Shown in pieces: positions 22 to 22,330 of a stretch of DNA of 28,779 nucleotides. Origin of the DNA: a virus; IMG/VR virus record IMGVR_UViG_3300048834_001299, positions 1 through 28,779 of that record. One strand, given 5' to 3'. The translations under genes and the position numbers were made by a program. Under the pieces are notes generated by a model. It was given only the letters and a program-made list of their open reading frames with translations, ran no database searches and was not told the origin of the DNA. Position 1 is the stretch's first letter. The number at the start of each line of letters is the position of its first letter.

Positions 22-27
22 GTTGAC
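22..27 (+). promoter_or_regulatory. Start-linked GTTGAC motif that sets the integrase start
   Basis: GTTGACACC followed by 12 bases and ATG at 43. The geometry equals that upstream of many phage genes in this window. It argues that translation starts at 43 and that the ATG at 1 is not the start. Its role in translation is inferred from position only. Confidence 0.5.
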
Positions 28-42
28 ACCTTTTCCCCGGTC

Positions 43-1377
43 ATGAATGGCTGTGGTGACAAATTGGTGACAACTCAGGAGCCCGCGGTTTGCGGCAAAT
101 CCAAGAAGCCCAAGCGGGGCAAACCCGTGGCTTCGGGGAAGTTCGGTTCGGCCGTGGTGCCGATCTATCGCCTGGGTTCCGGTGGCCGGATCCGCTTCAT
201 GCTTTCCTTCTATCTGGAGGGCAAACGGCAACGCCGCTCGTTCACCAGCTTGGAGGCTGCCAAAAAGGAAGCTCAGCTCGCGGCGCAGCGGATTCAGGGC
301 GGTCGGCAGGAAATGAACGACCTGCGGCCCCACGACCGGGAAGCCTACCGGACTGTGACCGACCTCCTGAAATCCTCGGGGGTCCCGCTGGTCACGGCGG
401 TTCAGGAATACGTCAGGGCGAACAAGCTCTTGAGCGGCATTCCGCTGGTGAGCGCCGTGGAGGAATTCAGCCGCAAGGCCCGCGGCATGAAGCTGGGGGT
501 GAAGGTCAAAGATGTTGTCGAGGAACTCCTGGTCGCAAAAAAGCAGGATGGCCTGAGTCATCGCTACCAGCTCCAGCTTCAAAGCAACCTGCGGCGCTTC
601 GCGGCGGATTTCGATGTGCCGATCTCGCACATCCGGCGCGACCAGATCGACGACTGGCTCCGGAAGCGTGGGATCGCCGTCCGTTCAAGAAATGGTCTGC
701 TCGCCACGATCCGGGTTCTGTTCTCGTTTGCCAAGAAGCGGGCCTATCTGCCCGTCGGCGATGTGACCGAGGCGGAGGCTCTCGACAAGATCCGTGCCGG
801 CGACGTGGACACGCAAATCTTCACCCCCGAGCAGTTCGCAAAGATCCTCCATGCGGCACCGCCAACTTTGATTCCCATCCTGGCCATCGGCGGATTCGCC
901 GGGATGCGGAAGGCGGAAATGGATCGCTTGGACTGGAATGCGGTGGACCTGGAGCGGAAAATGATCGAGGTCCGTGCCGGCCAGGCGAAAACCGCGTCAC
1001 GCCGGATCATTCCGGTTTCCGACAATCTCGTGGCATGGCTGACACCCTTGCCGCGGGAAGGCAAGATTGTGAAGGACGTGGACTTCCATCGCCAGATCAC
1101 CGCATTGGCCGAAGCGCTCAAGGTCGGCTGGCCGCACAACGTGCTGAGGCATTCGTTCATCAGCTACCGCATCGCCACGGTGAAGAGCGCGGACCAGGTG
1201 GCCCTTGAGGCAGGGAATTCGCCGAACGTCATTTTCTCGAACTACCGAGAACTAACCACCGAGGAGCAGTCGGACATTTGGTTTGGTATCCTTCCCAAGG
1301 ACGGACAGTGGGAAAACGCCGTCAAGTACGACCGACGCACCCACACGGTGACGCTGCCGGAATCCGCCGATCCTTGA
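43..1377 (+). CDS. Tyrosine recombinase (phage integrase)
   Basis: Site-specific integrase of the tyrosine recombinase family, expected to catalyse prophage integration and excision. Numbering from an ATG at position 1, the C-terminal catalytic domain shows the first arginine in GGFAGMRKAEMDRLDW (R303), a beta-hairpin lysine near K330, the HxxR-type box in PHNVLRHSF (R383) and the nucleophile in FSNYREL (Y415). An N-terminal SAM-like core-binding region lies around residues 160-250. The window begins exactly on an upstream in-frame ATG, but I choose the ATG at 43 because GTTGACACC lies at 22-30, the same start-linked motif and spacing seen before most other phage genes here. It stands alone on the plus strand and is followed within a few bases by repeat copy A. 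The usual GHxxxxxxxxHY context has Asn in place of the first His, as in related prophage integrases I recall. Confidence 0.9.
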   Translation: MNGCGDKLVTTQEPAVCGKSKKPKRGKPVASGKFGSAVVPIYRLGSGGRIRFMLSFYLEGKRQRRSFTSLEAAKKEAQLAAQRIQGGRQEMNDLRPHDREAYRTVTDLLKSSGVPLVTAVQEYVRANKLLSGIPLVSAVEEFSRKARGMKLGVKVKDVVEELLVAKKQDGLSHRYQLQLQSNLRRFAADFDVPISHIRRDQIDDWLRKRGIAVRSRNGLLATIRVLFSFAKKRAYLPVGDVTEAEALDKIRAGDVDTQIFTPEQFAKILHAAPPTLIPILAIGGFAGMRKAEMDRLDWNAVDLERKMIEVRAGQAKTASRRIIPVSDNLVAWLTPLPREGKIVKDVDFHRQITALAEALKVGWPHNVLRHSFISYRIATVKSADQVALEAGNSPNVIFSNYRELTTEEQSDIWFGILPKDGQWENAVKYDRRTHTVTLPESADP

Positions 1378-1380
1378 GCA

Positions 1381-1506
1381 TCCGTTCAATCCGCATGCCA
1401 ACGGTGATTCTCCGAGTCTAACAGCAGTCTATCAAACGCGGAATGGTTTTGCGGGGGGAGGGGATATTGCCATCCCTTGTGCGGCCGGAACGTGCTCCCA
1501 CGCGGC
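1381..1506. repeat. 126-bp direct repeat, copy A
   Basis: This block after the integrase aligns without gaps to 23886-24011. The first 26 bases are identical, and a further identical block begins ATATTGCCATCCC. A 5-bp inverted repeat CCGTT/AACGG sits at the left end. A third short copy of its first part is at 24072-24092. It may be a host interspersed repeat (REP-like), a recombination site or an integrase arm region; the sequence does not decide. The stretch 1378-1583 holds no other feature I can support. Confidence 0.7.
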
Positions 1507-1583
1507 ACCAAACGCAAAATCCGAGGCATGGAGAAATGTCTCCACACCCCGGATTTGTCATGCCCGGAAAATGGTGCCGCCGG

Positions 1584-1775
1584 TCAGCCCTTGAAGCTCT
1601 GGTTCGGCTGGCCGTCGTCGAGCAGGTCACCGATGCGGTTCACTGCGTCTTTGAGGATCGAGGCGGCGGCGAAGACAATCACCCCGACCTTCGGATCGAC
1701 GAATGGGATGAGGTTGAGAGCGGAAACGAACCCGGCGAGTTTTCCGACGAAGCTGAGGTATTTGAGTGCTTTCAT
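1584..1775 (-). CDS. Small phage membrane protein (63 aa)
   Basis: A 63-residue protein with a positively charged N-terminus (MKALKYLSFVGKLAG), two hydrophobic stretches (about residues 8-26 and 29-42) and a polar C-terminal tail. It has the look of a small inner-membrane protein kept at the lysis end of Verrucomicrobiota prophages, possibly an accessory holin. I do not recognise a defined family. GTTGACACC lies at 1790-1798 with the standard spacing to its ATG, which ties it to the phage late genes although the cassette-like block 1971-2961 now separates it from the holin-like gene at 3087. It is the last gene of the leftward late operon. Confidence 0.6.
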   Translation of the reverse strand: MKALKYLSFVGKLAGFVSALNLIPFVDPKVGVIVFAAASILKDAVNRIGDLLDDGQPNQSFKG

Positions 1776-1922
1776 GGTGCACCTGGGGCGGTGTCAACGG
1801 GCGCGGGTGGATTGTGATTGAAAGGCCCCCCCATACTCGCTAGAAGCCGCTTCATGAAAACGGCCTGCAAATGTGTCGGTGGACGAAGTCTGCTCTTCCG
1901 GGTCGCCTTTTCCCCTGATCAC

Positions 1923-1967
1923 CGACCGGTCGTTTAACACCCCCAAAACCCGACCGGTCGTTCAACA
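1923..1967. repeat. Two copies of palindrome CGACCGGTCG at 28-bp spacing
   Basis: CGACCGGTCGTTTAACA (1923-1939) and CGACCGGTCGTTCAACA (1951-1967) are near-identical direct copies, each containing a perfect 10-bp palindrome, just upstream of the gene at 1988. They could be twin operators (TetR-family operators often look like this) or the remains of an attC-like right half. The rest of 1776-1970 contains only the GTTGAC motif of the 1584-1775 gene. Confidence 0.45.
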
Positions 1968-1971
1968 TCAC

Positions 1972-1978
1972 GTTCGGC
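1972..1978 (+). other. attC-like core site GTTCGGC at start of a cassette
   Basis: CGTTCGGCAGAAATA at 1971-1985 is identical, base for base over 15 bases, to the minus-strand sequence at 28178-28192. Both lie just before the start of a small exported-protein gene. In integron cassettes the recombined attC half (R') sits exactly there. No clear matching left half is visible upstream. Confidence 0.4.
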
Positions 1979-1987
1979 AGAAATAAT

Positions 1988-2527
1988 ATGAAAAATATCC
2001 TTCTCATGGTCGCGCTTTTGCTTTGTCCAGCGTTCGGCAGCGGGGATCGTAGCGTGCCGTTGGACGGAGTGACAATTAGGGCCAATCGATTCGGAGTTGA
2101 GGCGACCATATCGGCTCGGCCAGACGGAACATCAGAGGTGACGATTCTCTTTAATGGGAAAGTCGTTCTGATTCCTAAAGAGGCGCTCGCAGATATTAAG
2201 AATATTAGAGTGGAATCAGCTCAGTTCATTACTCACACCCCAACGGGCGCGGAACTGCACAAAGACTGGCTGAAGGGCCACGGTTTCATGCTTTCTTTCG
2301 ACTATGGCGACAGTAAGTTTCACGCCAAAGATGACAAATCCGAGGAGGTGATGGTATTTGCCTGCTGCCGGATTGAAATTTCCTCGGAAGGAGCTTACAA
2401 AGGGTTGAACCGGTGCATTCCGCAAGGCGATCTTAAGAACAAGTGGCACATCACGGAGCGCTCGGTAGAGGGAAAGGACTTCGACATGGGGATTGAAGAT
2501 TCGATCAAATCGCCATTCGACGAGTAA
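1988..2527 (+). CDS. Exported protein of unknown function, cassette-like
   Basis: A 179-residue protein with a clear signal peptide (MKNILLMVALLLCPAFGSG). The mature part is polar, with beta-rich stretches and cysteines near FACCRIE and NRCIPQ. I do not recognise the family. The gene is oriented against the late operon, is less GC-rich than its phage neighbours and lacks the GTTGAC start motif. It begins a few bases after an attC-like core (1972-1978) and is followed by another attC-like element, so it is best read as a captured integron-type cassette and not a phage gene. Confidence 0.6.
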   Translation: MKNILLMVALLLCPAFGSGDRSVPLDGVTIRANRFGVEATISARPDGTSEVTILFNGKVVLIPKEALADIKNIRVESAQFITHTPTGAELHKDWLKGHGFMLSFDYGDSKFHAKDDKSEEVMVFACCRIEISSEGAYKGLNRCIPQGDLKNKWHITERSVEGKDFDMGIEDSIKSPFDE

Positions 2528-2537
2528 TGCCAAACAC

Positions 2538-2637
2538 GCCGAACCCCAAAGGAGTGTCGCACCAGCCGGCCAGAAGCTCTTCAATTTCACTTCAATTTCC
2601 CTTCAATCGCGCCGGTGAGCGCACATCAAACGCTGGA
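2538..2637 (+). other. Degenerate attC-like element between two plus-strand genes
   Basis: GCCGAAC at 2538-2544 (complement of the GTTCGGC core) follows the stop codon of the 1988 gene. An imperfect inverted pair follows: CACCAGCCGGC (2560-2570) against GCCGGTG (2611-2617). The right core would be at ACGCTGG (about 2630-2636) but is degenerate. Cassette-like by arrangement; weaker than the two sites at the right end of the window. Confidence 0.35.
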
Positions 2638-2655
2638 AACTAGACTGATCGGCTG

Positions 2656-2961
2656 ATGAGTGACAACGCAGCAAACACCGTGAGAGTCTTTTGCCTCCCT
2701 CTCCGAACCATCAAAGAGCATTTTGGCACTGATGCGATTGATGAAGCTGGAGACTTCCTCATAAACAATCTCCGCCAGATATCCGATCTCCCAGTGCAGA
2801 CGGGCACAGATTTCTCTTTGGACACTTCCCATCAGAATTCGTGGTTTCATTCTCTACGGTTCACCGTTACCGGCCTGAGTGAGAGTATGGTCCGCGAGTT
2901 TGTTGGCAGCGCTAGACAAGAGGGCGTAGAGTTGGAGGTTGAAGGCGGTGACATAATCTGA
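2656..2961 (+). CDS. Hypothetical protein (101 aa), cassette-like
   Basis: A 101-residue soluble-looking protein with no signal peptide and no motif I recognise. The ATG at 2656 follows the attC-like spacer by about 20 bases. Base composition is lower in GC than the flanking phage genes and there is no GTTGAC motif. By position it is the second gene of the plus-strand cassette-like block wedged between the phage genes at 1584 and 3087. Confidence 0.55.
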   Translation: MSDNAANTVRVFCLPLRTIKEHFGTDAIDEAGDFLINNLRQISDLPVQTGTDFSLDTSHQNSWFHSLRFTVTGLSESMVREFVGSARQEGVELEVEGGDII

Positions 2962-2978
2962 GAAGAATCGAAGGCGGT

Positions 2979-3077: not shown

Positions 3078-3086
3078 TCGGACGTT

Positions 3087-3275: not shown

Positions 3276-3290
3276 GATCCGGTGTTTGGT

Positions 3291-3296
3291 GTCAAT
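3291..3296 (-). promoter_or_regulatory. ATTGAC start-linked motif deciding the holin-like start
   Basis: On the minus strand ATTGACACC is followed by 12 bases and ATG at 3275. It overlaps the end of the upstream gene (stop at 3296-3298). It matches the window-wide GTTGAC(A/G)CC motif at one mismatch. Confidence 0.45.
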
Positions 3297-3751: not shown

Positions 3752-3769
3752 GGTGACTTGAAGCAGGTG

Positions 3770-4186
3770 TCAATTGCCCAGCGGCACGGCGTCGAGTTCC
3801 TCGCGGGTGGTGGCGGACCGGATGGCGGCGCGGCGGGTGGCGTGGAGCGTCCAGAGATCGCGGATGGCGGCTCCGTAGGCCACGAGGAGCAATCGCAGCG
3901 CCCTGATACCTGGCAGGGTGTGCGGCACGCCGCGGATGTCGGTGATGACCTGGGGCGTGTTCATGAAGGCGGTCTTTGCCGCCGCGTCCGGTTGGAGTTC
4001 GTGGGCCTCGCGTAGGAGCGTGAGCAGCCGGGTGAACGCCTGTTGATCGGCCTCGCCGGCGGCCAGTGTGATGCCGTTGATTTCGATCCCGAGCTTGAGC
4101 CGCTGCTGGGCGGCCTTTTCAAGCTGGAGGCGTTTGACGATCATCGCGGTGCGGAGAGCGACCTGTTGCAGTTGGGATTCGGTCAT
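3770..4186 (-). CDS. Late-operon protein, possibly DUF4376-like
   Basis: A 138-residue, mostly helical protein downstream of the tail fibre gene. The stretch from INGITLAAGEADQQAF to ATTREELDAV recalls DUF4376-type phage proteins found next to tail fibres (a short beta segment, then helices, ending in a TxEEL motif); this is a weak resemblance. Its stop codon lies inside the GTTGAC-type motif of the next gene. Its own start has no such motif and follows the upstream stop by about 13 bases. Confidence 0.5.
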   Translation of the reverse strand: MTESQLQQVALRTAMIVKRLQLEKAAQQRLKLGIEINGITLAAGEADQQAFTRLLTLLREAHELQPDAAAKTAFMNTPQVITDIRGVPHTLPGIRALRLLLVAYGAAIRDLWTLHATRRAAIRSATTREELDAVPLGN

Positions 4187-4199
4187 GGCGGGATGGTAG

Positions 4200-5477
4200 T
4201 TAGATTTCGGTCAGAGTGACGTTTGCTGCGACATAGTAACCGGAGGAATAGGATCCGAAGAAACAGTTGCCGGACCAATCAAAGGTGCCGTCGGCGGTGA
4301 AGGTGAACTCGACGTAAATATCCGAGGCCATTGTTGGCGGGGCATTGAGCGTGGCCGAAAAGCTGGCATCGCTTCCGAGGTAGGAATCCAGATAGTTACT
4401 CGACACATTCTGCACGTTGGAGAACGAGGCCGAGCCGTAATTGACGTTGGAAATCCCGAAGTATTCGCCGCTGACTGGAATGTCGCTGAAGTTGTCGATT
4501 CTCACGTGGTAGTTCCTGCCCGCCTCGACCAGGCCAAAGGAGACGATGCTCTCATAGCTGTCTATGTTCACCGAATTGACCTGTGGCGGGGCGAAGGGGC
4601 CGATGAAGGTGGTGTTAATCTGCACCCAGCCATCGTTGGCGGTGGTCAGGTCGTTCTTGGTGCTGATCCATGCGTCGATCCCGTTGACTGCGATGCGGCC
4701 TTTCCACCCTGGAGTGCCGTCGATCATCTGATCGGGCTGGTAGTTGGTGGGTTCGCCATCATAGACCACCGGATACCAGACCCCGTTGATGTTCTGCCGT
4801 GGCAGGGTCAGGTCGGGCGGGGCCTCGGCTGCAAGGATCGCGTTTCGCACGTATCCCCGCTGCGTGGCCGTGAGGGACTCCTGTGCATCGTGACGCAGAT
4901 ATTTCGGATGCGGGTCCGTGGCATTGAGGTGGGCGGTCATTGCCGCAGCCACATCTGTTGGAGACGCAATGTTCTGCGGCAGCGGATACGGTGGCTCGGC
5001 GGAAGTGGGCACGCCCTCGGTGCCGCGGTTCACGTCGTTTTCCACGACGACGAGGAAGGTCCGGGTGCTGGTCGGTTCGCCTGATCCCTCGCGCCAGGTG
5101 ATCTCGCCCATGAGGGTGATTTCGGCAAGCTCGCTGCCGGTGGACGATCCCACGCCGAGTGCCGAGTCGAGTTCCACGGTGTTGAAGCTGGGCGAGCACT
5201 GATAGACCGGATTCTCGGCGTTAACGGCCGGCATCGTCCAAACCGCATCATGCACCAGATAGCCGATGTCGTAGCGATTGCGCGGCTTGATGCCGAAACG
5301 GATTTCCAGCGTGGCCGGATCGCCGATGGCAACCGCGGTTGTGCCGCCCTCAAGAAACGACACTTCCAACAGGGCCGCGTCGCCGCGCTTGAACCGGAGC
5401 GAGGTGACGGGATTGCGGAATCCCGGGCCTTCGATGAGTTGCAGCGTTTCAAGATCGACGTGGAGCTTCACGTCCAT
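4200..5477 (-). CDS. Tail fibre / baseplate-type protein
   Basis: A 425-residue beta-rich protein. The N-terminal ~170 residues (KLHVDLETLQLIEGPGF..., LRFKRGDAALLEVSFLEGG) resemble the baseplate-attachment end of tail fibres. A central part (HLNATDPHPKYLRHD...) is the short histidine/aspartate linker often found in fibres, and the C-terminal 150 residues are rich in Ser, Tyr and Asn, as expected of a trimeric receptor-binding tip. It is probably the adsorption protein. GTTGAC at 5486-5491 precedes the start but with only 8 intervening bases, the shortest spacing seen. Confidence 0.65.
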   Translation of the reverse strand: MDVKLHVDLETLQLIEGPGFRNPVTSLRFKRGDAALLEVSFLEGGTTAVAIGDPATLEIRFGIKPRNRYDIGYLVHDAVWTMPAVNAENPVYQCSPSFNTVELDSALGVGSSTGSELAEITLMGEITWREGSGEPTSTRTFLVVVENDVNRGTEGVPTSAEPPYPLPQNIASPTDVAAAMTAHLNATDPHPKYLRHDAQESLTATQRGYVRNAILAAEAPPDLTLPRQNINGVWYPVVYDGEPTNYQPDQMIDGTPGWKGRIAVNGIDAWISTKNDLTTANDGWVQINTTFIGPFAPPQVNSVNIDSYESIVSFGLVEAGRNYHVRIDNFSDIPVSGEYFGISNVNYGSASFSNVQNVSSNYLDSYLGSDASFSATLNAPPTMASDIYVEFTFTADGTFDWSGNCFFGSYSSGYYVAANVTLTEI

Positions 5478-5486
5478 GCCTGGCTG

Positions 5487-6383
5487 TCAACCGGGCGCTG
5501 CCGTGAGTTCATGTGTCTCGCCGTGGGCGGTTGGCTTCACGCCGCGTTGGCTGTCGTTGAAACACCGGACCATCATGTTGACCAGCCGGGTTTTGCCCGG
5601 GGATGACGGCAGCGGGATTTCAAACCAAGCCGACCACGGATCTTCGAGGCTTCCCGACCATGTCCAGGATCTTGATGCGACCAACGACGGCGCGGGAGAC
5701 GGAGCCTCGCCCGGATCTGCCGGGATCACAGGTTCGGTACCACGGGATTCAGGGTCTTCGATCTCCCATGCTGCGTGGGTGGCAACCGCTGCATCATAGG
5801 CGTCCTTGAGGGTTTTCCACTCGATCCACGCCTTAGGGAAGAACACCTCGTCCCATTGGACCGCATACGTTGAACGGCTGTAGCCTTCCGGAATGCCGAG
5901 TCGATAGCGGGCAAAGCCGAGTTCAACCACCTGATCCAGCAAACTCACCGGAGTGTGGTTTTCGCGCCACGAATCGCAACCGGTGCCATAGGTGAAATCC
6001 TCGTTGTCCCATTCGACCGCGCTTTCCAACGCTGCTATCGCTGCGGTTCGTGCGGCATCAATGTCGATTGCGTCCGACACGCTGGAATCACTTCCCCCGG
6101 TTTTGGGTTCCCCTTCCGTGATATTGCGAACCGCAGTCGAGACCGGAAAACCGCCCAACTCCGCATTGAATGCCTGGCTTTGCGTCCACTGCAAGAAACC
6201 GCCGTCGTTATAGTCCCAGCGGGTGGTCCTGTAATAGGTGTGGGTGACGCTGTTATAGATTTCCCAGGTGAGGTCGGCCGCTCCGGAAAGTGATTGGCAT
6301 TCCTTTCGCGGTGCCTCGCATGCCGGTGGCAGGCAATCGCAGCAGGAAACAAGTGCCGCATCCTGGGAGGTTTTGATGATCAT
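5487..6383 (-). CDS. Putative tail-tip structural protein
   Basis: A 298-residue protein of unknown family placed between tape measure and tail fibre, where tip and baseplate proteins are encoded. It has a cysteine-rich N-terminus (VSCCDCLPPAC), many aromatic residues (WEIYNSVTHTYYRTTRWDY) and a Pro/Ala-rich hinge near residue 225. The ATG overlaps the stop of the preceding gene as ATGA (6380-6383), which implies translational coupling, and longer in-frame starts overlap that gene fully. Its own stop codon lies within the next gene's GTTGAC motif. Confidence 0.6.
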   Translation of the reverse strand: MIIKTSQDAALVSCCDCLPPACEAPRKECQSLSGAADLTWEIYNSVTHTYYRTTRWDYNDGGFLQWTQSQAFNAELGGFPVSTAVRNITEGEPKTGGSDSSVSDAIDIDAARTAAIAALESAVEWDNEDFTYGTGCDSWRENHTPVSLLDQVVELGFARYRLGIPEGYSRSTYAVQWDEVFFPKAWIEWKTLKDAYDAAVATHAAWEIEDPESRGTEPVIPADPGEAPSPAPSLVASRSWTWSGSLEDPWSAWFEIPLPSSPGKTRLVNMMVRCFNDSQRGVKPTAHGETHELTAAPG

Positions 6384-6997: not shown

Positions 6998-7002
6998 GAT
7001 GG

Positions 7003-7725: not shown

Positions 7726-7743
7726 CCTGGCCGGGACATGGCG

Positions 7744-9420
7744 TCAACCGAAGGCCGCTTGCCCGCCGCCACCGAGTTTTTCCACCCGGCGAGCAAGGTC
7801 TGTTAGCAGGCGGTTGGTTTCGCCGGTGAGCCGATTGTTTTCCCGCTGCGCATCGAGCGTGCCGGACGAATAGCCACCGCCGCCGACTTTGCCCAAGGAC
7901 GTGACTATGGGTGTGAGGCTGGAGGATTGATTGATCGCCGTGGGCGCGGTGTTCGTGGTCTTCGCCGCCACGGTGGCTGCCTGTTTCACCTCCTCTGGCT
8001 TTGGCAGGGCTTCACGGATGGTGCCAAGGACGGTGTTCATGCTTTCGCGCAGTCCGGTGGTGTCGATGACCTCGGCGGTGTTGGAAAAGGCGTCGCCGAA
8101 ACGGGCGGAGATGTTTTCACCCGCTTCCTTCAACCGGAGTCCGACCTTGGCGGCAAGCGGCCCGAGCTGGTCACCGGCGTCACTGTAACGTCCTGCCGCC
8201 TCTGCATCGAGCACACCCGCCGATTCGCGCAGGGCTCCCTGGGCGGAGTTGATGGAATCGCCTTTGCCAAACAACTCGGCGAGCGGGCGTGCTATTTCCA
8301 GCGCTTCAGCGAGTCCTTTTTGAAGGAAACCGATGGCGTTGAGAAAGATTCCGATGATCGCATTGCCCATGCCCTTCCAAAAGTCGGCGGTGGTTAGGAT
8401 CTGGAAGTAGGTGATGGCCGTCCTGAAAATTTCGACGATGTATTGACCGGCGGCGGCGATGGTGGCACGGAGCGTAGCCCACAGGAAATTCACGCTCATC
8501 GCAAACCCGAGTTTCAAGGATGATCCGACAAGATTGATGAACTGGCCGCTCTTGAACACGATGATCACATACTGCATGGCATCGCGGATTTTGTGTCCTG
8601 CCTCTGCCGCCAGTGGGGCGAGTTTCTGGGCAAGCGCGATGGCCTGTTCGACCAGCGGGCGGATGGCATCATTGATCGGCGTGCCGAGGGTGAGGAACAC
8701 TTCGTTGATCGTGTCCTTCAGGGTGGAGAACAGGCCCGAGGTGGTTTTGCTCTGGGCCTCCATCATGCCCGCGAACTTGCCGCCCTGCGAGGTCATGTTG
8801 ATGAATGCCTGCTCGATGGCGGGAAATCCTACCTGGCCTGTCTCCACGAGCTTCTTTACCTGCGAATCCGAGACGCCAAATTGCTTCGCCAGCTCGCCGA
8901 TGATCGGAATCCCTCGACCGGTGAGCTGGTTGATGTCCTCGGCGAATAGCCGCCCCTGGACACGCGCCTTGCCGTAGAGTTCGGCGATCTCGTTGACCGG
9001 TGCCTGCACGCCCGCCGACACGTCACCGATACGGGCGAGAGTGGCGGCAACCGTGTCGGCCCCCTCACCGAATGCGATGAGCTTGCGGCCGGCATCCGCC
9101 AGTTCAGGGAATTCGAATGGCGTTTTTGCACCAAGTTCGCGGAGTTGCGCGAGGGTTTGTTTCGCCTTGGCTGCGTCACCGATCAAGGTCGTGAATGCCA
9201 CTTTCGTTTGCTCAAAATCCGCGGCTGATGTGACCGCCTTCAATCCTGCTGCCAATGCCACGCCACCACCAGCGAGAGCGGCTCCGAGACCAACCTTCAG
9301 ACTCGCAGCACTGAGACTCGCCATCTTCTTGGCCGACGCTGAAACGAGCTGGGTGGCATTCGCCATGGACCGCTTCAACGCGGTGATGTCGGCTCCAAGG
9401 GTGACGGTCAGGGCGCTCAT
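7744..9420 (-). CDS. Tail tape measure protein
   Basis: A 558-residue protein that sets tail length and is packed in the tail tube. The N-terminus (residues 1-65) is an Ala/Lys-rich helix followed by a glycine-rich hydrophobic segment (GLGAALAGGGVALAAGL). Residues 68-200 show the conserved tape-measure N-terminal region (ADFEQTKVAFTTLIGD, AKTPFEFPELADAGRKLIAFG, QLTGRGIPIIGELAKQFGV). Further hydrophobic helices lie near residues 290-380 and a helical tail ends the protein. At about 0.15 nm per residue the tail would be near 80 nm (inference). GTTGAC at 9435-9440 precedes the start. A methyltransferase gene has been placed between it and the chaperone gene. Confidence 0.85.
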   Translation of the reverse strand: MSALTVTLGADITALKRSMANATQLVSASAKKMASLSAASLKVGLGAALAGGGVALAAGLKAVTSAADFEQTKVAFTTLIGDAAKAKQTLAQLRELGAKTPFEFPELADAGRKLIAFGEGADTVAATLARIGDVSAGVQAPVNEIAELYGKARVQGRLFAEDINQLTGRGIPIIGELAKQFGVSDSQVKKLVETGQVGFPAIEQAFINMTSQGGKFAGMMEAQSKTTSGLFSTLKDTINEVFLTLGTPINDAIRPLVEQAIALAQKLAPLAAEAGHKIRDAMQYVIIVFKSGQFINLVGSSLKLGFAMSVNFLWATLRATIAAAGQYIVEIFRTAITYFQILTTADFWKGMGNAIIGIFLNAIGFLQKGLAEALEIARPLAELFGKGDSINSAQGALRESAGVLDAEAAGRYSDAGDQLGPLAAKVGLRLKEAGENISARFGDAFSNTAEVIDTTGLRESMNTVLGTIREALPKPEEVKQAATVAAKTTNTAPTAINQSSSLTPIVTSLGKVGGGGYSSGTLDAQRENNRLTGETNRLLTDLARRVEKLGGGGQAAFG

Positions 9421-9461
9421 GCGCCGGGGGTGGAGTCAACTGGAGGATGGTCCTGCGGTGC

Positions 9462-11628: not shown

Positions 11629-11655
11629 TTGACCGCGGGCGGCGTGTCAACTGCA

Positions 11656-12081: not shown

Positions 12082-12099
12082 CTTGCCCGGTGTGAGGCG

Positions 12100-12579
12100 T
12101 CAACCAACACGACCCCGCGCGATCCGTTGGGCCGGCTTTGACTGTGCGTGGATGTTGGCGAGGAAGTCAGAAACGAGCTGCCAATTCTCTTTGTATTGAT
12201 TGAGGTCCGATACTTGCCGGAGGTCAACCTTACTCCAGCGAGCGTCCCGGGGAAGACTCTTGACCACATCGACTGGAATCACGAAAAACTCAGGTGCCTT
12301 TGCCTGCTTGGATCCGTCCTTCGCCCCTCGGTTCAGGAACGCAGCGACAACAAAATCGCAATCAAAGTTGCTGATGGGGAATCCGGTGGCTCCGGTACGC
12401 CAGCGGCTCTTGACCTGTATTCTTGCCGAGGTGTTCGCTTCTGGTTTTGTAGCGATGAGATCATACCCCGGCATGTTGGTGTAGGTCTTATAGGCGGCTA
12501 TCCGATTGAGTAGCAAGTGGCCAAGGACGAGGAATTCGCCTCCTTCGCTCTCCAATCTCGTATCCAGTCGTTTAGGCAT
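12100..12579 (-). CDS. PD-(D/E)XK-fold nuclease-like protein (moron)
   Basis: A 159-residue protein with a probable PD-(D/E)XK core: PGYDLIAT places an aspartate, and RIQVKSRW supplies the (Q/E)xK half-motif on the next strand, with a hydrophobic FDCDFVVAAFL strand after it. This pattern is typical of restriction endonuclease-like folds, including Holliday junction resolvases and DUF4365-like proteins. It sits inside the structural operon between head-completion and tail genes. It lacks the GTTGAC start motif, so it looks like an inserted accessory gene. A GTG at 12585 is an alternative start. Target unknown. Confidence 0.6.
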   Translation of the reverse strand: MPKRLDTRLESEGGEFLVLGHLLLNRIAAYKTYTNMPGYDLIATKPEANTSARIQVKSRWRTGATGFPISNFDCDFVVAAFLNRGAKDGSKQAKAPEFFVIPVDVVKSLPRDARWSKVDLRQVSDLNQYKENWQLVSDFLANIHAQSKPAQRIARGRVG

Positions 12580-13752: not shown

Positions 13753-13780
13753 GCCAGTGTCGTGCTGTCAAAATGAAACA

Positions 13781-13804: not shown

Positions 13805-13833
13805 CATCCCATGAACCACCCAATCGAAATGGC

Positions 13834-14730: not shown

Positions 14731-14739
14731 GGCGTGCTA

Positions 14740-15192
14740 TCAGGCTTGGTGTTTGAGGATGAGGGCTTGTTGTTCAGGGGTGAGTTTCCGCCAGAAGACG
14801 GTCTGGGCGGTGGGGTCGGTGATGGCGGCGAACTGCGCGTGGAGGTCGGCGGCCTGGGTGGCATCACCTGCTGGAGTGACGCGGGCTGGCAGCGTGGTGC
14901 CGGTGGAGGCGACGACGCGGGCAACCTCGGTCTGGACGCGGGTGTCGAAGTCGGCTTGCGCTGCCTGAAGATCGGCGATGCGGGTTTGCAGGGCGGTGGA
15001 TTCACCCCTGGCGGCATCGCGCTCGGCTTTGAGCGTGTCGATTTCGGCGGTGAGTAATTCCACTTCGCCGCGCAGCGAATCCTGACTGGTGGAGGCTTCG
15101 TTGAGAAGTTCGGCCTGGGCTTGGTAATCCCGCTGGATGGTATCGATCCGGGTGCGGGCTTCTGCGAGTTGGTCTTCGATGGTGGTGTCCAT
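14740..15192 (-). CDS. Nested scaffold protein (Nu3-like), internal start
   Basis: In-frame internal product of the protease gene, 150 residues beginning MDTTIEDQLAEARTRID. It is almost wholly helical, with heptad-like spacing to about residue 90, a Pro/Gly-rich linker, and a C-terminal helix (DPTAQTVFWRKLTPEQQALI) of the kind that binds capsid. Lambda makes Nu3 from the same arrangement inside gene C. The internal ATG is preceded by GTTGACACG at 15205-15213, the same start-linked motif and spacing as ordinary gene starts here, which is the main sequence evidence for a real start. Separate production awaits proof. Confidence 0.6.
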   Translation of the reverse strand: MDTTIEDQLAEARTRIDTIQRDYQAQAELLNEASTSQDSLRGEVELLTAEIDTLKAERDAARGESTALQTRIADLQAAQADFDTRVQTEVARVVASTGTTLPARVTPAGDATQAADLHAQFAAITDPTAQTVFWRKLTPEQQALILKHQA

Positions 15193-16014
15193 TGACCGTG
15201 CGCCCGTGTCAACCGAGGCGTGATAGACGCGCAGTCGGCGCATGGCTTCGGCACGATCCGGGACCATGCCCGCGAGGTTATAGCGTTGGGCCTGTTTGCC
15301 GCTGAAGGTCTGGCCTTCCATGGCCTCGGCCGGGATTGATCGCCCCTTGGCCAACACCGCCGCATGGAACTCCCCGGCGATTTCCGCGAGGTTGGAGTTG
15401 ATGAGTTCCCGCTGGTCGTCGGTGAGCGGGGTGCCCGGTGCGCCCATCGCCTTGTATTTGCCGACCGAGAAGACCTCGACCTTGATGCCCGCCTTATCGA
15501 GGGCGGTGCTGTTGTCGATCACCGCTTGCACCACGCCGATGGATCCAACTTGGGCCGACGGGGTGGCGTAGATGGCGCTGGCTTGGCTCGCAACCCAGTA
15601 AGCGGCGGATGCCATCAGACCGGAGGAGAACGCATAGACAGGCTTTTGCTTGTTGAGCGAAGAGACGGCAGCGGCAAGTTCCGGAGTGCCGGCCACGGTG
15701 CCGCCTGGAGAGTCGATGTTGAGAAACACCGCCTTGATGTCGTCACGCGAACCGGCTTCACGGAGGGCCGCGCCGATGTCCTCGGAACTGGTGGCACCGA
15801 AAAACACGCGGGCGAACAGATCTGGCTTGCGGAGGATCGGACCTTCGATGGCGACCACACCGACGCCGTCCTCGATGGAGAGCAGGGAACTGGACGGCTG
15901 GTGCTGGGGAAGGGATCCACCGCGATCCACGAACGACCGCACGTCGGCGGCCATAGCACGCAGGGCATCGGGCTGGATCAACCACTCTTTATTTTGCAGG
16001 AGCACCGGATTCAC
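14740..16014 (-). CDS. S49-family capsid maturation protease with C-terminal scaffold
   Basis: A 424-residue prohead protease of the SppA/lambda gpC type. The N-terminal half shows the S49 pattern: FLNIDSPGGTVAGTPELAAA (residues 97-116), the catalytic serine in SGLMASAAYW (S136), AQVGSIGVV (155-163) and a likely general-base lysine in SVGKYKAMG (K186 or K188). From about residue 275 the protein becomes a coiled-coil scaffold (DSLRGEVELLTAEIDTLKAERDAA and on). The start is GTG at 16012-16014, overlapping the portal gene by 26 bases, with GTTGACACC at 16026-16034 upstream. The protein cleaves scaffold and capsid during head maturation. Confidence 0.85.
   Translation of the reverse strand: MNPVLLQNKEWLIQPDALRAMAADVRSFVDRGGSLPQHQPSSSLLSIEDGVGVVAIEGPILRKPDLFARVFFGATSSEDIGAALREAGSRDDIKAVFLNIDSPGGTVAGTPELAAAVSSLNKQKPVYAFSSGLMASAAYWVASQASAIYATPSAQVGSIGVVQAVIDNSTALDKAGIKVEVFSVGKYKAMGAPGTPLTDDQRELINSNLAEIAGEFHAAVLAKGRSIPAEAMEGQTFSGKQAQRYNLAGMVPDRAEAMRRLRVYHASVDTGARSMDTTIEDQLAEARTRIDTIQRDYQAQAELLNEASTSQDSLRGEVELLTAEIDTLKAERDAARGESTALQTRIADLQAAQADFDTRVQTEVARVVASTGTTLPARVTPAGDATQAADLHAQFAAITDPTAQTVFWRKLTPEQQALILKHQA
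15208..15213 (-). promoter_or_regulatory. GTTGAC motif inside the protease gene
   Basis: GTTGACACGGGCGCACGGTC then A and ATG at 15192. It is coding (Val-Asp-Thr) in the protease frame yet has the spacing of an inter-gene start motif, so it marks an internal initiation site. Confidence 0.5.
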
Positions 16015-17431
16015 GCCCGGTTGCCGGTGTCAACGCCGAGCCTGATGGCTTCCAGAGCATTTCGACCGGCACGCCGTATTTGAGGGCGGTTTCGAGGATG
16101 AGCTTCGCATCGCTGGCGCGGCGTTCGATCTCCTCGCCGAAGTCGGCACCGAGTTCCTGGAAGTGGTCAGATAGAGTTTTGAGGCCCATCTCCACGTCGG
16201 CGCGGTTCTGTTGGGCTTCACGTCCGGCGTCCACTGTCACACGCTTGGGCGGAACGGAACTGATCTTCCACCATCCTTCGATGGGCGGCAGAAGTCCGCG
16301 TGAAATCGCGTCGCCAATCACATAGGCCCATACCGGGCGGATCAATCGACGTTCGAGAATCATCTGGCGGAATGAGAACCGACGATCCGCCTTGGCCACG
16401 ATCAAACGCACGCCCGCGCCGCCGATCTTGCTGGAATCTGCCGCGAACTCGAAAGGAATCATGCCGAGCGCTGAATCACGCCGCAGGTGTTCCAGGAAGC
16501 CAGTGAACGTGGGCGATGGGCGATTCGACTGGAAGCTGTCGAGGGATTCGTCGGGTTTGAGAGCGATCAATTTGCCGCCGACAATGCGTTGGAGCGAAAC
16601 CGGATCGCTGGATTCAGCTCCGCCGGTCGCCCCACCGACCACGAAATCACCGTTGTCATCCAGTTCGCCGCGTGCTGTTTTGAGGATGCGCGACACGTCG
16701 GCATTGTCCTTCACCGCATGTTTTTCCAGTGCCAGCAACTCCATTTCGTCGAGGACGTGGTTGATGGAATGCTGAATCGTCGGATGCGAACGAACGCCGC
16801 CCGCCCATTCCGGTTCATGGATGTGAAGAATCGCCGGGGCCGGCAGATCACGCCCCTTGCCGTTGTCTTCCCGCACTCGATAGAAGATCGGTGCGCCCCA
16901 GGCATCGAGACCCACGCCGTCGATGGTGTCCTTCGAGCCGAACTCGTCACCGATGCGATGGGACTCGATCAACTGGATGCGTGGTTCACCCTCGGCATCG
17001 CGGGTTTTGTGAATGAAGTATTCGCCGTCGATGTCCATGCCGCGACAGACCAGCGCCTGGCATTCCTCGAACGAAAACCGGCGCGTCACCTCGCAGCGGG
17101 CGGACCACAGGGAAAAATACGCTTCGGCGGCACGGTTCCATTCCGGCTTGGATGATTGTGCCTGGACGCGGATGCCATCGCCGGTTGAATAGATCGCCAT
17201 GTTGGCGACTAGTTCCCGCATGAATCCGCTGTTCTTGTGAAGGTAGCGCGACTTGCGAACCAACTCGGTGCGAACACCAGGCGTGAGTTCGTTGCGGGCA
17301 TCAGTGGGCGAGGCTCCTGGCACGCTGCCACGGCGGGGCGACCAGTTGGCTGCCTCGAACGGAGATCCCCACGCCTTCGGCACGAGGACGGGCGGCAGCC
17401 AACGCATGGCGATTTGTTTGAGGCTGGTCAT
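15989..17431 (-). CDS. Portal protein (lambda gpB type)
   Basis: A 480-residue portal protein, forming the dodecameric vertex through which DNA enters the head. Features of the Phage_portal_2 family are ARNELTPGVRTELVRKSRYL and NSGFMRELVANMAIYSTGDG near the N-terminus, ALVCRGMDIDGEYFIHKTRD, and PIFYRVREDNGKGRDLPAPA-like wing sequence. A longer in-frame reading exists, but the ATG at 17429-17431 overlaps the preceding stop as ATGA and begins the usual MTSLKQIAMRWL leader. No GTTGAC motif is needed or seen, consistent with coupled translation. Confidence 0.9.
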   Translation of the reverse strand: MTSLKQIAMRWLPPVLVPKAWGSPFEAANWSPRRGSVPGASPTDARNELTPGVRTELVRKSRYLHKNSGFMRELVANMAIYSTGDGIRVQAQSSKPEWNRAAEAYFSLWSARCEVTRRFSFEECQALVCRGMDIDGEYFIHKTRDAEGEPRIQLIESHRIGDEFGSKDTIDGVGLDAWGAPIFYRVREDNGKGRDLPAPAILHIHEPEWAGGVRSHPTIQHSINHVLDEMELLALEKHAVKDNADVSRILKTARGELDDNGDFVVGGATGGAESSDPVSLQRIVGGKLIALKPDESLDSFQSNRPSPTFTGFLEHLRRDSALGMIPFEFAADSSKIGGAGVRLIVAKADRRFSFRQMILERRLIRPVWAYVIGDAISRGLLPPIEGWWKISSVPPKRVTVDAGREAQQNRADVEMGLKTLSDHFQELGADFGEEIERRASDAKLILETALKYGVPVEMLWKPSGSALTPATGRESGAPAK

Positions 17432-17688: not shown

Positions 17689-17708
17689 GAATGATTGCAG
17701 TTGTCAAC

Positions 17709-18308: not shown

Positions 18309-18311
18309 GGC

Positions 18312-18467: not shown

Positions 18468-20284
18468 GGCTCCTCTTCCGGGGTGTCAACTGGCGAGGAT
18501 GCCGCCTCCCGACCCACGATCTTGAGCATGGTGGCGGCGGCGACCTGCATGGACTCGTTATCCATGTAATGGTTCGGCCGTGATCCGATTTGCTCCCACA
18601 TCCACCGGCCGCCTTTTTTGATCCGGTGCTCGCTTTCCATTTGGGCGAGGTATTCGTCGTCGATGTCGTCGGGCACTTCCCAAACCGGGCCGTCGTCCGG
18701 GTTTTGATTTCGGCGCAGGCGGGCGAGAGTGTCCTTGATGTTGAGGTTGGACCAGTAGAACACCGAGCAGGTTTGTCCCCGGCCCAACACCACTTTGCGA
18801 CGTGGCGAATAGAACCGTTCCACCGACTTCCGGCCCTTGACCTTGTGGGTGAAGGTCGGCCGTTTATCGCCCTTGAGGGCTGTCCATCCGTGGGCCGCGC
18901 ATTCGCGATAGACGTCATAGGTAGCGTAACCGGCATCGACAAACACCAGATTCGGATGGATGCCAAAGCGTTCCTGGACGTTCTCCACGTCGTTGAAGCT
19001 CAGCACCCGCTCGTTCCAGATCAACCGACTGGATCCGTCCTCGGCCCATGCGCGGACAATGAGCCACAAGTGATCCATCTGGCAATCCACCGTCAGGATG
19101 CGCAGCGGACACGCGCACGGTTCGCCGGCCGGGACCAATCGCCCATGGGCATCCACGCCCGCCTCGCCGTCCCAGGTTTCGCCTTTGAGGTAGCCGCCCG
19201 GGACGATGTCCAGTTTGTAGTCTTCCAGATACTCGCGCCAGGCCAACGCCAGACGTTTCTGGTAGAACTGCTGGATCAAACTCACGTCGCCCTTGCGTGC
19301 GGCGGCCTTGGCGCGGAGGTAGAGTTCGGCCAGCCGGCCCCAGCTCATTGCGCACATGGCATTCCAGTGGAATCCGGTGTTTTCCTTGGGTGCGTTCGGG
19401 TTGGTGACGACGTAGCGGCCCGATAGATTCAGTTCGCGGCGGGTGCGGTCGCTGTCCTCGAAGTAGTGATTGCAGGACGCGCAACGCATCGAGGTGGTAT
19501 CGCGGACTTTCTGGAAATCCCACTCGCCGGTTTCGTCGCGGGCGTCTTTGCTCCACTCGACTTGCTCCCATTTGAAGGGTTGGCGCTGGTGGCAATGCGG
19601 ACACTCAAACGTCCACACCCGCATGTCGGTTGCTTCATGTTTGCGGTGGGTGTCGTCGTCATCCTCGCCGCCCTGGCTCATGAACAGGCATTTGCCCAAC
19701 CAACCGAACGCTGTGACACGGGCTTCGGCTTCGGCCATGTGACCGGTCGGCCAACGCCATGTTTCATCGCCGATCAACCAGCGAATGGAACGACGCTGAA
19801 GATTGGTTTTGTTGTGCGCCCCCAGCACCCAAAGCGTCATGCCATTGGCGAAGTGAACGGTGGCGACGCGCTTCTTGTGCCGGTTCGCGGGATAGAAGGC
19901 GCGGACGGGCTGACATTCGTCGAACAGCTTTTGCAAGCGGCTCTCACTCTGGTCTTTGGCGTCGTCATCTGTCTGGTCGAGCCACAGGGTCGGGCCGGGG
20001 TGGTTGGCGATGATGTGGGCGAGGCCGAGTTCCCCGACGCTGGTTTTGCCGCTCTGGATCGCGGCGATGATGCTCACGATCCGGATTCTGGGATCGACCA
20101 AAGCTTCCATCGGTTCACGCATCCAAGGTGAATTGGCCGAACGAAAGCGACCTGGGATGGGAGAGTATGGAATCGAGGTGATGTGTTCCTCGCACCATGC
20201 CCACGGGGGACGACGATCCGGTGGACGCCAGGCATTCCGCCAGATGCGTTCGAGTTTCCTGCGTGCGGGTTCGACGGTTTTCAT
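18464..20284 (-). CDS. Terminase large subunit (GpA family)
   Basis: A 606-residue packaging motor ATPase and nuclease of the lambda gpA family. The Walker A-like segment is AAIQSGKTSVGE (K80, T81), followed by PGPTLWLDQTDDDAKDQ. A zinc-binding pair ECPHC / RCASC lies at about residues 225-270. The nuclease domain begins ILTVDCQMDHLWLIVRAWAE, with a second acidic strand LVFVDAGYATYDVY. GTTGACGAT at 20300-20308 precedes the ATG, which overlaps the small terminase stop. Position after the small subunit confirms the call. Confidence 0.93.
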   Translation of the reverse strand: MKTVEPARRKLERIWRNAWRPPDRRPPWAWCEEHITSIPYSPIPGRFRSANSPWMREPMEALVDPRIRIVSIIAAIQSGKTSVGELGLAHIIANHPGPTLWLDQTDDDAKDQSESRLQKLFDECQPVRAFYPANRHKKRVATVHFANGMTLWVLGAHNKTNLQRRSIRWLIGDETWRWPTGHMAEAEARVTAFGWLGKCLFMSQGGEDDDDTHRKHEATDMRVWTFECPHCHQRQPFKWEQVEWSKDARDETGEWDFQKVRDTTSMRCASCNHYFEDSDRTRRELNLSGRYVVTNPNAPKENTGFHWNAMCAMSWGRLAELYLRAKAAARKGDVSLIQQFYQKRLALAWREYLEDYKLDIVPGGYLKGETWDGEAGVDAHGRLVPAGEPCACPLRILTVDCQMDHLWLIVRAWAEDGSSRLIWNERVLSFNDVENVQERFGIHPNLVFVDAGYATYDVYRECAAHGWTALKGDKRPTFTHKVKGRKSVERFYSPRRKVVLGRGQTCSVFYWSNLNIKDTLARLRRNQNPDDGPVWEVPDDIDDEYLAQMESEHRIKKGGRWMWEQIGSRPNHYMDNESMQVAAATMLKIVGREAASSPVDTPEEEP

Positions 20285-20880
20285 TCGCCCTGATGGAGTA
20301 TCGTCAACACCTCGTCAATGGCGCGGCGGGCTTCCTCCTGAATGCCGGTGGCGTCGAGTCCTGATAGAATTGGCGGCAACTCCTGTTCAAATTTCTTGCG
20401 AAGCATCGATGTTGCCTGCGCCACGAACTCGGTCCATGCCTGCCGGACTTCCTCGACGGCCACATAGTCACCGCGTCGGATGCCAAGCCGTAGTTCCCGT
20501 TCCTCGACTTCCGCTAACAGCTTGCGGGCCTTGAGCGACGATTCGATGTCGCCGGGTTCTGCCACCTCGCTGCCCTTGAGATCGTTTCGGCGCATGAATT
20601 CCCGCCAGGCGGCCACGTCATGCAGTCCATTGGCGGCGGGTTTTGGCGCGTCCTTGCGCTTTTTCCAGGTGTTGAGCGTCTGGCGGCTGGCTCCCAGGAT
20701 GGCTGCGAGTTCGACGTAGGATGCCGCGGTTGCCGGGGCTGCTCCACTTCCCGTGGCCAATGTCTGCAACATGGCCCGCTCGGCACGGGTCAACTTGCCG
20801 CCCTTCTGCACGCGACCCACGAGGTTTGCGAAGTCGCGGGAAAGCAGCTTTTTGGCGATGTCGGGGGATACGGCGTCCAT
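20281..20880 (-). CDS. Terminase small subunit (Nu1-like)
   Basis: A 199-residue DNA-recognition subunit of the terminase. A helix-turn-helix lies at about residues 55-75 (YVELAAILGASRQTLNTWKK), an order typical of Nu1-like proteins, followed by long helices for oligomerisation (RKLLAEVEERELRLGIRRGD) and a C-terminal region for binding the large subunit. GTTGACGCC at 20895-20903 precedes the start. It binds the packaging initiation site (cos or pac), which is not visible. Confidence 0.82.
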   Translation of the reverse strand: MDAVSPDIAKKLLSRDFANLVGRVQKGGKLTRAERAMLQTLATGSGAAPATAASYVELAAILGASRQTLNTWKKRKDAPKPAANGLHDVAAWREFMRRNDLKGSEVAEPGDIESSLKARKLLAEVEERELRLGIRRGDYVAVEEVRQAWTEFVAQATSMLRKKFEQELPPILSGLDATGIQEEARRAIDEVLTILHQGE

Positions 20881-20906
20881 CTGCCGCTTGCGGCGGCGTC
20901 AACCGG

Positions 20907-21470
20907 TCATTTGTGATCGAACAGATCAGGCGTTCCCTCGGTCAGTTTCGTTTGAATCAGCTTTTGCAGATCAGATTTGAGGACACCATACTTCGAGAGG
21001 AGCTTGGCCGCTTCCCGCAAATCATCATCCAACTCGCCGGTCATTTTGCCAAGGCCAGACGCTTCGATGTCTTCTTGCGATTCGTTCAACAGTGCCGCCA
21101 CAGCATTAGGGCCTGCGAGGTTCACCGGTAGATCCAGGATTTTTGACCATTGAGGCTGCGAGATGCACTTGAGGGCAAGTTTGTTGATGAAGAGGTGGCC
21201 GTTTGCGAGCTTCATCACAATCGTATGTGTGGAGGGAAGCACTGTTGCGAGGTTCAGAATCGATCTGCCCGAAACACGAACCTGGCAGTTGGATGTTCCC
21301 TTCGCAGCAACCGCGATGGAACCTCCGCCCACTTCGATGTGGATGTTCGCGCCATCGAACGACAAGACCGCCTCCTCGCCTTTTCGTCTGGAGACCGTCT
21401 TGGCAAGCAATTTGAGACCCTTTTCGAGTGTGCCTCGTTGGATTTCGAGATGCAGTTGGTCGTCGTTCAT
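20907..21470 (-). CDS. Hypothetical protein, possible sliding-clamp-like fold
   Basis: A 187-residue protein upstream of the small terminase and divergent from the ParB gene. Residues 10-85 (LKLLAKTV..., AVLSFDGANIHIEVGGGSIA, VRVSGRSILNLATVLPSTHT) show the strand and helix rhythm of a DNA polymerase III beta-clamp domain, with a polar helical C-terminal tail. This is a fold impression only, and one domain is too short for a complete clamp. It lacks the GTTGAC motif, so it may be an accessory gene. Confidence 0.5.
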   Translation of the reverse strand: MNDDQLHLEIQRGTLEKGLKLLAKTVSRRKGEEAVLSFDGANIHIEVGGGSIAVAAKGTSNCQVRVSGRSILNLATVLPSTHTIVMKLANGHLFINKLALKCISQPQWSKILDLPVNLAGPNAVAALLNESQEDIEASGLGKMTGELDDDLREAAKLLSKYGVLKSDLQKLIQTKLTEGTPDLFDHK

Positions 21471-21550
21471 CGCATCACATTTTGATCGGTGTCCCGATAA
21501 ACGTGAGTATCGTCTGATGTTGTGTCAAGGTTGACGGGTTGGCATTGGCC
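21471..21550. promoter_or_regulatory. Divergent intergenic region
   Basis: An 80-base divergent region separating the leftward genes from the plus-strand operon, so promoters for both are expected here. TTGACA occurs leftward (within CCTTGACACAAC) and TTGATC rightward, but I find no convincing -10 boxes at normal spacing. The plus-strand GTTGAC motif (21530-21535) also lies here. Confidence 0.3.
21530..21535 (+). promoter_or_regulatory. GTTGAC motif on the plus strand, sets ParB start
   Basis: GTTGACGGG with 15 bases between GTTGAC and the ATG at 21551. Together with the integrase site it shows that the motif follows gene orientation and is not a feature of one strand. Confidence 0.5.
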
Positions 21551-22330
21551 ATGAGCATTCCCGTGCATTGCGCCCACACCCGCCTCGTTGATCCGAACAC
21601 GCTGAAACCCAACCCGGTCAACCCGAACCGGCACAGCGCTCACCAGATTCAGCTTCTCGCCTCGATCATCCAGGAGCAGGGTTGGCGCAATCCGGTCACC
21701 GTCTCGAAACGCTCGGGGCTGATCGTCCGCGGTCACGGCCGCCTGGAAGCCGCGCTCTTGATCGGCTGCGAAACGATCCCCGTGGATGAACAGGACTATG
21801 CCAGCGAAGCGGAGGAACTCGCCGACTTGCTTGCGGACAACCGTCTATCTGAACTCGCCGAACTCGATGAAGACGACCTGCGGAGGGTGCTCAAATCCAT
21901 CGTCGACGCCGATCCCGACTTCGACATCGAACTGACCGGCTTCATGGAGGACGAGATCCGCAAGCTGATGGACGACGAGGCCAATCCGGAGGACGAACTC
22001 GAAACGATCCCCCGGATGGAATGTCAGGCATTCGAGACCCACGACTACCTCGTGTTCATGTTCCACGACCTGCGCGACTGGATGCAGGTGCTTCAACTCA
22101 TGGGGGTGCGCGAGGTTGACTACTCGATCACCCGCAGAACCAAAAAAATCGGCATTGGCCGTGTGCTCCATGGAAAACGACTCATTGAACTCTGCCGCCG
22201 CGCCAGCATGGCCGGAATTCCGCCCCTTGAAACTCCGCCTGGTGATCCTGTCGCGGAGTCGAAGCCGCTCGATCACCAGTCACAAGCTGTTCCCGACGGC
22301 GACGCTGCTCGTTCCCGCAAGCGAGGCTGA
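21551..22330 (+). CDS. ParB-like nuclease domain protein
   Basis: A 259-residue protein. Residues 10-95 form a ParB/Sulfiredoxin-type N domain: LVDPNTLKPNPVNPNRHSAH, then QLLASIIQEQGWRNPVTVSK, and the phosphate-binding GLIVRGHGRLEAALLIG. Acidic helices follow (SEAEELADLLADNRLSELAE), as in phage ParB proteins next to DNA-modification genes. The C-terminal 50 residues are proline-rich and overlap the next gene in another frame. It heads the plus-strand operon; in phages this domain is often fused or linked to DNA methylases or base-modifying enzymes. The ATG at 21551 is chosen by the GTTGAC motif spacing. Confidence 0.8.
   Translation: MSIPVHCAHTRLVDPNTLKPNPVNPNRHSAHQIQLLASIIQEQGWRNPVTVSKRSGLIVRGHGRLEAALLIGCETIPVDEQDYASEAEELADLLADNRLSELAELDEDDLRRVLKSIVDADPDFDIELTGFMEDEIRKLMDDEANPEDELETIPRMECQAFETHDYLVFMFHDLRDWMQVLQLMGVREVDYSITRRTKKIGIGRVLHGKRLIELCRRASMAGIPPLETPPGDPVAESKPLDHQSQAVPDGDAARSRKRG

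Follow-up and report, generated by a model that had tools for sequence, protein, structure and literature searches.

A start-linked TTGAC word in Akkermansiaceae prophages as a candidate translation-initiation signal for mainly late genes

Late promoters of the T4 type consist of a single short AT-rich element at -10, which is found before many late genes. Among the signals described for translation, the ACA enhancers located upstream of the Shine-Dalgarno (SD) sequence in yifK and dppA work together with the SD and have no strict spacing (PMC3879156), and a phage-encoded bS21 has been proposed to serve late translation in Bacteroidetes (PMC9723584). A survey found Akkermansia to be SD-scarce with a conserved CCUCC (PMC10783764), and about 10% of the start sites in A. 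muciniphila are leaderless, with elements at about -35 and -10 (PMC4782308). The choice of start codons in SD-poor bacteria and their phages is an open question. Here we describe a short word, (G)TTGAC(A), which precedes start codons in the IMG/VR virus record IMGVR_UViG_3300048834_001299 (28,779 bases; this whole stretch of DNA is referred to as the window) and in related prophages. The start-linked word is real and strongly conserved, and it matches no known start signal.

Spacing and conservation of the start-linked word

The sequence GTTGACRCC, with at most one mismatch, occurs 38 times in the window compared with 15.7 ± 4.1 times in shuffled sequences, a 2.4-fold excess that was reached in none of 100 shuffles. 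A terminase search gave 85 related loci, 80 of them viral and five in bacterial assemblies; gene calls outside the window came from a simple open reading frame (ORF) caller made for this analysis. An ATG lies 14-18 nt downstream of 401 of the 621 GTTGAC words in these loci (spacing is counted as the nucleotides between the C of TTGAC and the start codon), the counts being 5, 67, 96, 41, 136, 61 and 1 at 13, 14, 15, 16, 17, 18 and 19 nt respectively, and the reversed hexamer used as a control showed no ATG peak at 14-18 nt. Since the 85 loci are kin, distinct starts were counted as well, with 183 found for GTTGAC against about 13 at control spacings and 34 against 10 for ATTGAC. The other one-base variants stayed at about the control level once the GTTGAT matches, mostly antisense or in-gene, were set aside; GTTGAT itself was rejected as a variant of the motif because most of these matches are false ones. 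After de-duplication the edges at 14 and 18 nt are sharp in the window group and in other lineages, and GTG starts peak at 14 nt. TTGAC at 14-18 nt was also found before 83 of 427 crude ORFs in nine contigs, compared with 6-14 at shifted spacings. GTTGAC is clearly not equally frequent at random positions in related genomes, the pattern which the sequence-only reading had named as speaking against itself.

The consensus of 122 non-redundant starts is (G 0.47, T 0.30, A 0.16, C 0.08)TTGAC(A 0.63), followed by a spacer that is C-rich and then G-rich, and neither a second conserved element nor an AT-rich -10 was found in them. As these starts were chosen for TTGAC, they are informative only for the flank frequencies and the missing second element. 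The base before TTGAC is typically G, with T in sister phages and rarely C. Of the GTTGAC(A/G)CC first claimed from the window, the core TTGAC therefore holds and the trailing (A/G)CC is reduced to a preference.

All seventeen start-linked sites claimed for the window exist, fourteen of them with GTTGAC, two with ATTGAC and one with TTTGAC, and the spacing is 14-18 nt at sixteen. Two lie on the plus strand: GTTGAC at 22..27 stands 15 nt before ATG 43 of the integrase (assigned via PHROG 1 and Pfam PF00589), and GTTGAC at 21530..21535 stands 15 nt before ATG 21551 of the ParB-like gene, the first of the rightward operon. The others are on the minus strand, where the leftward late operon (about 21470 to 3275) encodes a GpA-type terminase, a lambda-family portal, an S49 protease, a P22-like coat and a tape measure. 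In this operon GTTGAC was found at 20898..20903, 17 nt before ATG 20880 of the terminase small subunit (TerS); at 20303..20308, 18 nt before ATG 20284 of the large subunit (TerL); at 18485..18490, 17 nt before ATG 18467 (51 amino acids); at 17703..17708, 14 nt before ATG 17688 (86 amino acids); at 16029..16034, 14 nt before GTG 16014 of the S49 head-maturation protease; at 15208..15213, 15 nt before ATG 15192 within the same gene; at 12099..12104, 17 nt before ATG 12081 (weak Tail_completion_gp17 match); at 11646..11651, 17 nt before ATG 11628; at 9435..9440, 14 nt before ATG 9420 of the tape measure; and at 7743..7748, 17 nt before ATG 7725. TTTGAC at 13767..13772 lies 14 nt before ATG 13752 (weak Phage_attach match), and ATTGAC lies at 3769..3774, 17 nt before ATG 3751 of an fn3-domain protein, and at 3291..3296, 15 nt before ATG 3275. 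Further downstream, GTTGAC at 1793..1798 precedes ATG 1775 by 17 nt, the start of a 63-amino-acid ORF kept in relatives.

The single exception is GTTGAC at 5486..5491, which is 8 nt from ATG 5477. An in-frame GTG at 5471 lies at 14 nt, and homologues of this gene in two prophages start at GTG, 15 nt from the motif. GTG 5471 is probably the true start, and with it the anomaly disappears. The motif is absent from the methyltransferase and the cassette genes, as had been claimed. Its reported absence from closely coupled genes holds in the main, as eight of the ten motif-less late-operon genes overlap the upstream gene or begin at most 13 nt from its stop, but not strictly, as a few motif genes overlap the upstream gene too.

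Conservation of the word at the nucleotide level, independent of reading frame, was borne out. It falls in all three frames of overlapping genes, being read as Val-Asp (16029..16034, in the portal gene), as Leu-Thr (20303..20308, at the end of the TerS gene) or across a TGA stop. In eight gene families the entropy of the word is zero or near zero compared with a mean of 1.2-1.55 bits in the flanks, a result that is supporting only, as the members were picked for having the word. An unselected check was provided by the TerS-TerL junction in about 60 relatives, most of which retain GTGTTGACG. In a few subgroups the word is replaced as a whole block by CTTTCC or TTGTCC and the TerL-TerS overlap by ATGA persists, so the word seems dispensable where genes are coupled.

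The internal start in the protease gene is an independent validation of the start-linked motif. What had been taken as a separate gene starting at 15192 carries the motif as described, but its boundary does not stand: the starts 15192 and 16014 are in frame in one protease gene (14740-16014) and share the stop at 14740. In 24 distinct phage protease genes the motif was found before the protease start and a second, in-frame motif before a conserved internal ATG. This internal ATG would yield a product of about 150 amino acids, in the window a scaffold-like C-terminal one of 150. Lambda C and Nu3 form a protease-scaffold pair, and the layout here resembles it. The motif thus improves gene-start annotation, as in the case of GTG 5471 and of the internal scaffold-like start at 15192.

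Hosts and range of the word

Assemblies with the terminase bear the labels Akkermansia, Akkermansiaceae or Verrucomicrobia, and the motif phages are Akkermansiaceae prophages. This assignment is sound despite possible misbinning of metagenome-assembled genomes, because it rests on a 278-kb contig and on repeated finds at the family level. On that contig (G189 C45) the integrase and most structural genes of two prophages are preceded by the motif, and the chromosomal stretch separating the two prophages is without it. Counts of the pattern GTTGACRCCN11-15ATG ranged from 0 to 23 among 195 genomes of the family, and in the genomes rich in it the matches tend to cluster in prophage blocks. A genome-wide host signal was rejected, since host counts are at background and the high counts of some genomes are such prophage clusters. 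Among 548 host ORFs the motif is found at 1%, not above shifted controls, and among unrelated HK97-type prophages of the same host family at 0% (SD at 5%), whereas motif phages have it at 28-29% of their ORFs, with SD at 4-11%. The word is restricted to these phages and to mainly late genes.

The range of the motif is broader than had been claimed, extending over the 85 related loci and to more distant Verrucomicrobiota prophages. Sister prophages with 55-61% identity in TerL (L304, L310, L331) have TTTTGACAC or TTGACA at the same place. The motif was also observed in L337, L338, L341 and L343 (TerL 65-72%), in L348 (portal 26%) and in the distant prophages L295, L313, L336, L349 and L350 (TerL 22-39% identity), and more weakly in L333 and L309 of this last group. 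The TTGAC core is common across these diverged prophages and its flanks are lineage-specific; the lineage L301/L311/L312 has no clear motif. The motif can serve as a sequence marker for a large, mostly uncultured group of Verrucomicrobiota prophages. A pattern scan of IMG/VR for GTTGACACC...CATGA gave mostly chance matches plus members of the same group, and the GenBank phage collection holds no close phage relative (best terminase identity below 60%). Our literature searches gave no description of the motif, in agreement with the sequence-only reading, which knew of none.

The Puniceicoccales phage P8625 (L244) has no motif at 14-18 nt. Four of its genes (5448, 10772, 15594, 22442) have TTGACA exactly 31 nt upstream, with a -10-like hexamer in at least three, and at two or three of these four sites an inverted repeat (e.g., GTATCC..GGATAC) was observed. 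From their sequence, these sites are likely to be leaderless-type promoters with an operator.

Several further features of the window and its relatives were noted. The rightward operon contains an amidoligase-like gene followed by a glutamine-amidotransferase-like gene (24114-25840). The window holds two to three copies of a similar non-coding stretch (TTCAATCCGCATGCCAACGG ... ATATTGCCATCCCTTGTGCGG; about 1381-1510, 23884-24000 and 24070-24095), which flank the phage region on both sides, and a related word is also found in L077. In L274, L277, L245 and L248 (starts of contigs G005 and G006 for the last two), the integrase lies directly downstream of a tRNA-like 3' end, GGTTCGAGTCCTC...GAGCA or GGTTCGAATCCC...GTCCGCCA, which suggests tRNA attachment sites for these prophages.

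Reading of the word in RNA or in DNA

We infer that the word is read in RNA and promotes initiation, and our preferred reading, to which we give a little short of an even chance, is that it serves mainly late phage genes as a non-SD signal for translation initiation at the mRNA level. The Verrucomicrobiota hosts keep a normal anti-SD and hardly use it, and their phages would put (G/T)UUGAC(A) at about -20 of those genes that are unable to rely on translational coupling. The reader could be part of the ribosome at the mRNA exit or a bound protein of host or phage origin; it would capture the word, after which the ribosome would start 14-18 nt further on, at an AUG or GUG. This reader would be conserved, since the TTGAC core stays nearly constant among phages that have diverged widely. 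Translation is suggested by the strict distance to ATG or GTG, the internal in-frame start, the equal use of the word at first genes and at genes inside operons, the lack of SD and the complementarity with tight coupling, and the missing -10 element and the GC-rich spacers fit it as well. A word of five to six bases would specify a site only jointly with the start codon, as the SD does, and copies away from starts are tolerated in most lineages. Of the earlier proposal of a non-canonical initiation signal or a phage-factor site, the start linkage, the frame independence and the lack of SD stand, and the word may be read either in mRNA by the ribosome or in DNA by a transcription factor.

The weak SD reported at these starts was confirmed, as purine-rich SD sequences do not rise above background in either the hosts or the motif phages; in host ORFs they are found at 7%, equal to the upstream control. 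The word itself does not behave as an SD, being 14-18 nt and not 5-10 nt from the start codon and not being used by host genes (548 host ORFs). Apparent spacer hairpins were rejected, as the stems in the 17-nt families did not clearly exceed those obtained with shuffled columns.

Several observations weigh against a translation signal. The 16S tails of the host family are normal and end in GGATCACCTCCTTTCT, and the comparison of this 3' end proposed by the sequence-only reading gave neither GTCAA nor any complement to the motif, which excludes anti-SD pairing. In hosts that carry motif phages the helix-40 loop of 16S reads AUCAA (G142, G105, G158 and G056) or GUUAA (G126), not GUCAA, and pairing with it was rejected as the loop base facing the C of the motif is A in the hosts; no 16S pairing partner was thus found in the 3' tail or the helix-40 loop. 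TTG starts are not enriched downstream of the motif (17 against 21 expected), whereas a signal of the SD kind should serve some of them. Host genes and other phages of the same host family manage without the word. In addition, the word equals the sigma70 -35 hexamer TTGACA (core TTGAC, next base A in 63%), the compact relatives described below show no recognisable sigma70 promoter from which an mRNA with the word in it could arise, and in the window group off-site GTTGAC ranks, on both strands, within the 2-3% of hexamers that are most depleted when compared with the host, a depletion not expected of an RNA signal.

These last three observations keep transcription viable. The word could be a DNA element of late promoters, a serious rival that we nevertheless hold less probable than the translation reading, in which RNA polymerase, through a phage factor or sigma region 4, reads TTGAC(A) and transcription begins at the start codon or just before it; the resulting leaderless or very short-leader mRNAs would be translatable in SD-poor hosts, and leaderless start sites are known from A. 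muciniphila. The identity with the -35 consensus is accompanied in host genes by a small TTGAC peak at -35 (7/345) and by a second peak, of TANNNT, at -12. Ten compact relatives have only 50-56 nt between the divergent ParB and TerS starts, a stretch that holds just two motifs, back to back and separated by 7-13 bp; a search reaching as far as 150 nt into the opposite gene gave no sigma70-like promoter above chance. The enrichment confined to purine-initial start codons, the mainly late motif genes and the early regulator-like protein that motif phages often encode (see below) also favour a promoter. However, neither a -10 hexamer about 17 bp downstream nor an AT-rich melting region was found in the 122 non-redundant starts, and their spacers are GC-rich. 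In the hosts, as in A. muciniphila, the -35 sits 35 bp from the start site, 15-17 bp further than the motif, and with this geometry the predicted transcription start falls inside the coding sequence. About 11 bits are, moreover, too little to define promoters. The off-site depletion is not seen in other lineages.

A reader for such promoters was sought in an early-region helix-turn-helix (HTH) protein of about 180 amino acids, with no Pfam match at E 0.01, which most motif lineages encode (L272:8502-9050; L246, L249, L331, L338, L350, L083). This sigma-4-like protein is not convincing as the reader, as its recognition helix differs between lineages while TTGAC is constant and as it is also present in L301/L311/L312, the lineage without a clear motif. 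Separately, in L086, L041 and similar loci the divergent TerS and ParB starts are separated by the insertion of an optional small HTH gene; it has a CTTGACA resembling a promoter and, just downstream, the palindrome TCCGCAGACTACGGA. TTGACA was also observed to be rare on both strands of host coding DNA (observed/expected about 0.5; contigs L092-L111 and L264-L283), which is consistent with a -35 role in the host.

The paired inverted copies in the compact intergenic regions, together with the many sites, would also suit a repeated operator of a phage DNA-binding protein, whose role might be silencing or a roadblock; we regard this as very improbable, as it leaves unexplained both the link to starts at 14-18 nt in one orientation and the internal in-frame start. 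The fixed distance to the start and the interior operon positions fit an mRNA-processing site as well, where an endoribonuclease would cut near UUGAC and free for each late gene a short-leader mRNA that needs no SD. Such processing is unlikely, since in-gene copies on the sense strand have not been removed in preference to those on the antisense strand and no nuclease of the phages was identified that would make the cut.

Returning to the translation-initiation reading, its more general form is that phages of SD-poor Verrucomicrobiota have their own signal for start-codon selection, read by a conserved ribosome site other than the anti-SD or by an attached protein, and here our belief is weaker, somewhat below even. 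If true, this would be a second sequence-specific ribosome-recruitment code beside the Shine-Dalgarno, used mainly for late genes. The element may be a novel code for recruiting ribosomes or a promoter of novel architecture. It is a clean genetic handle on start-codon choice, being short, strictly spaced, common to phages with 22% identical terminases and absent from host genes.

Comparison with known systems

Like the SD, the motif is a short word set within a narrow range of distances before AUG or GUG, is independent of reading frame and precedes many operon genes. Unlike the SD, which pairs with the anti-SD, it is not complementary to the 16S tail (CCTCCTTTCT), lies about 10 nt further upstream, and is phage-specific and not used in host genes. 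Like the ACA enhancers, it would be an upstream mRNA element acting on initiation, and many motif sites contain ACA; in the motif, however, TTGAC is invariant, the following A is variable and the spacing is strict. The phage bS21 system resembles the present case in the proposed favouring of late phage transcripts in hosts with unusual anti-SD use. No bS21, however, was recognised among the phage proteins scanned, and the special feature here lies in the mRNA or DNA.

On the side of transcription, sigma70 promoters and the leaderless promoters of Akkermansia have the same core hexamer, TTGACA at -35. The motif differs from them in having no -10 and in the distance from the hexamer to the would-be start site, which is 13-17 nt rather than about 29 nt. 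As in the late promoters of the T4 type, one short element precedes many late genes, whereas the T4 element is AT-rich and at -10 and the motif lies at about -20 in GC-rich DNA.

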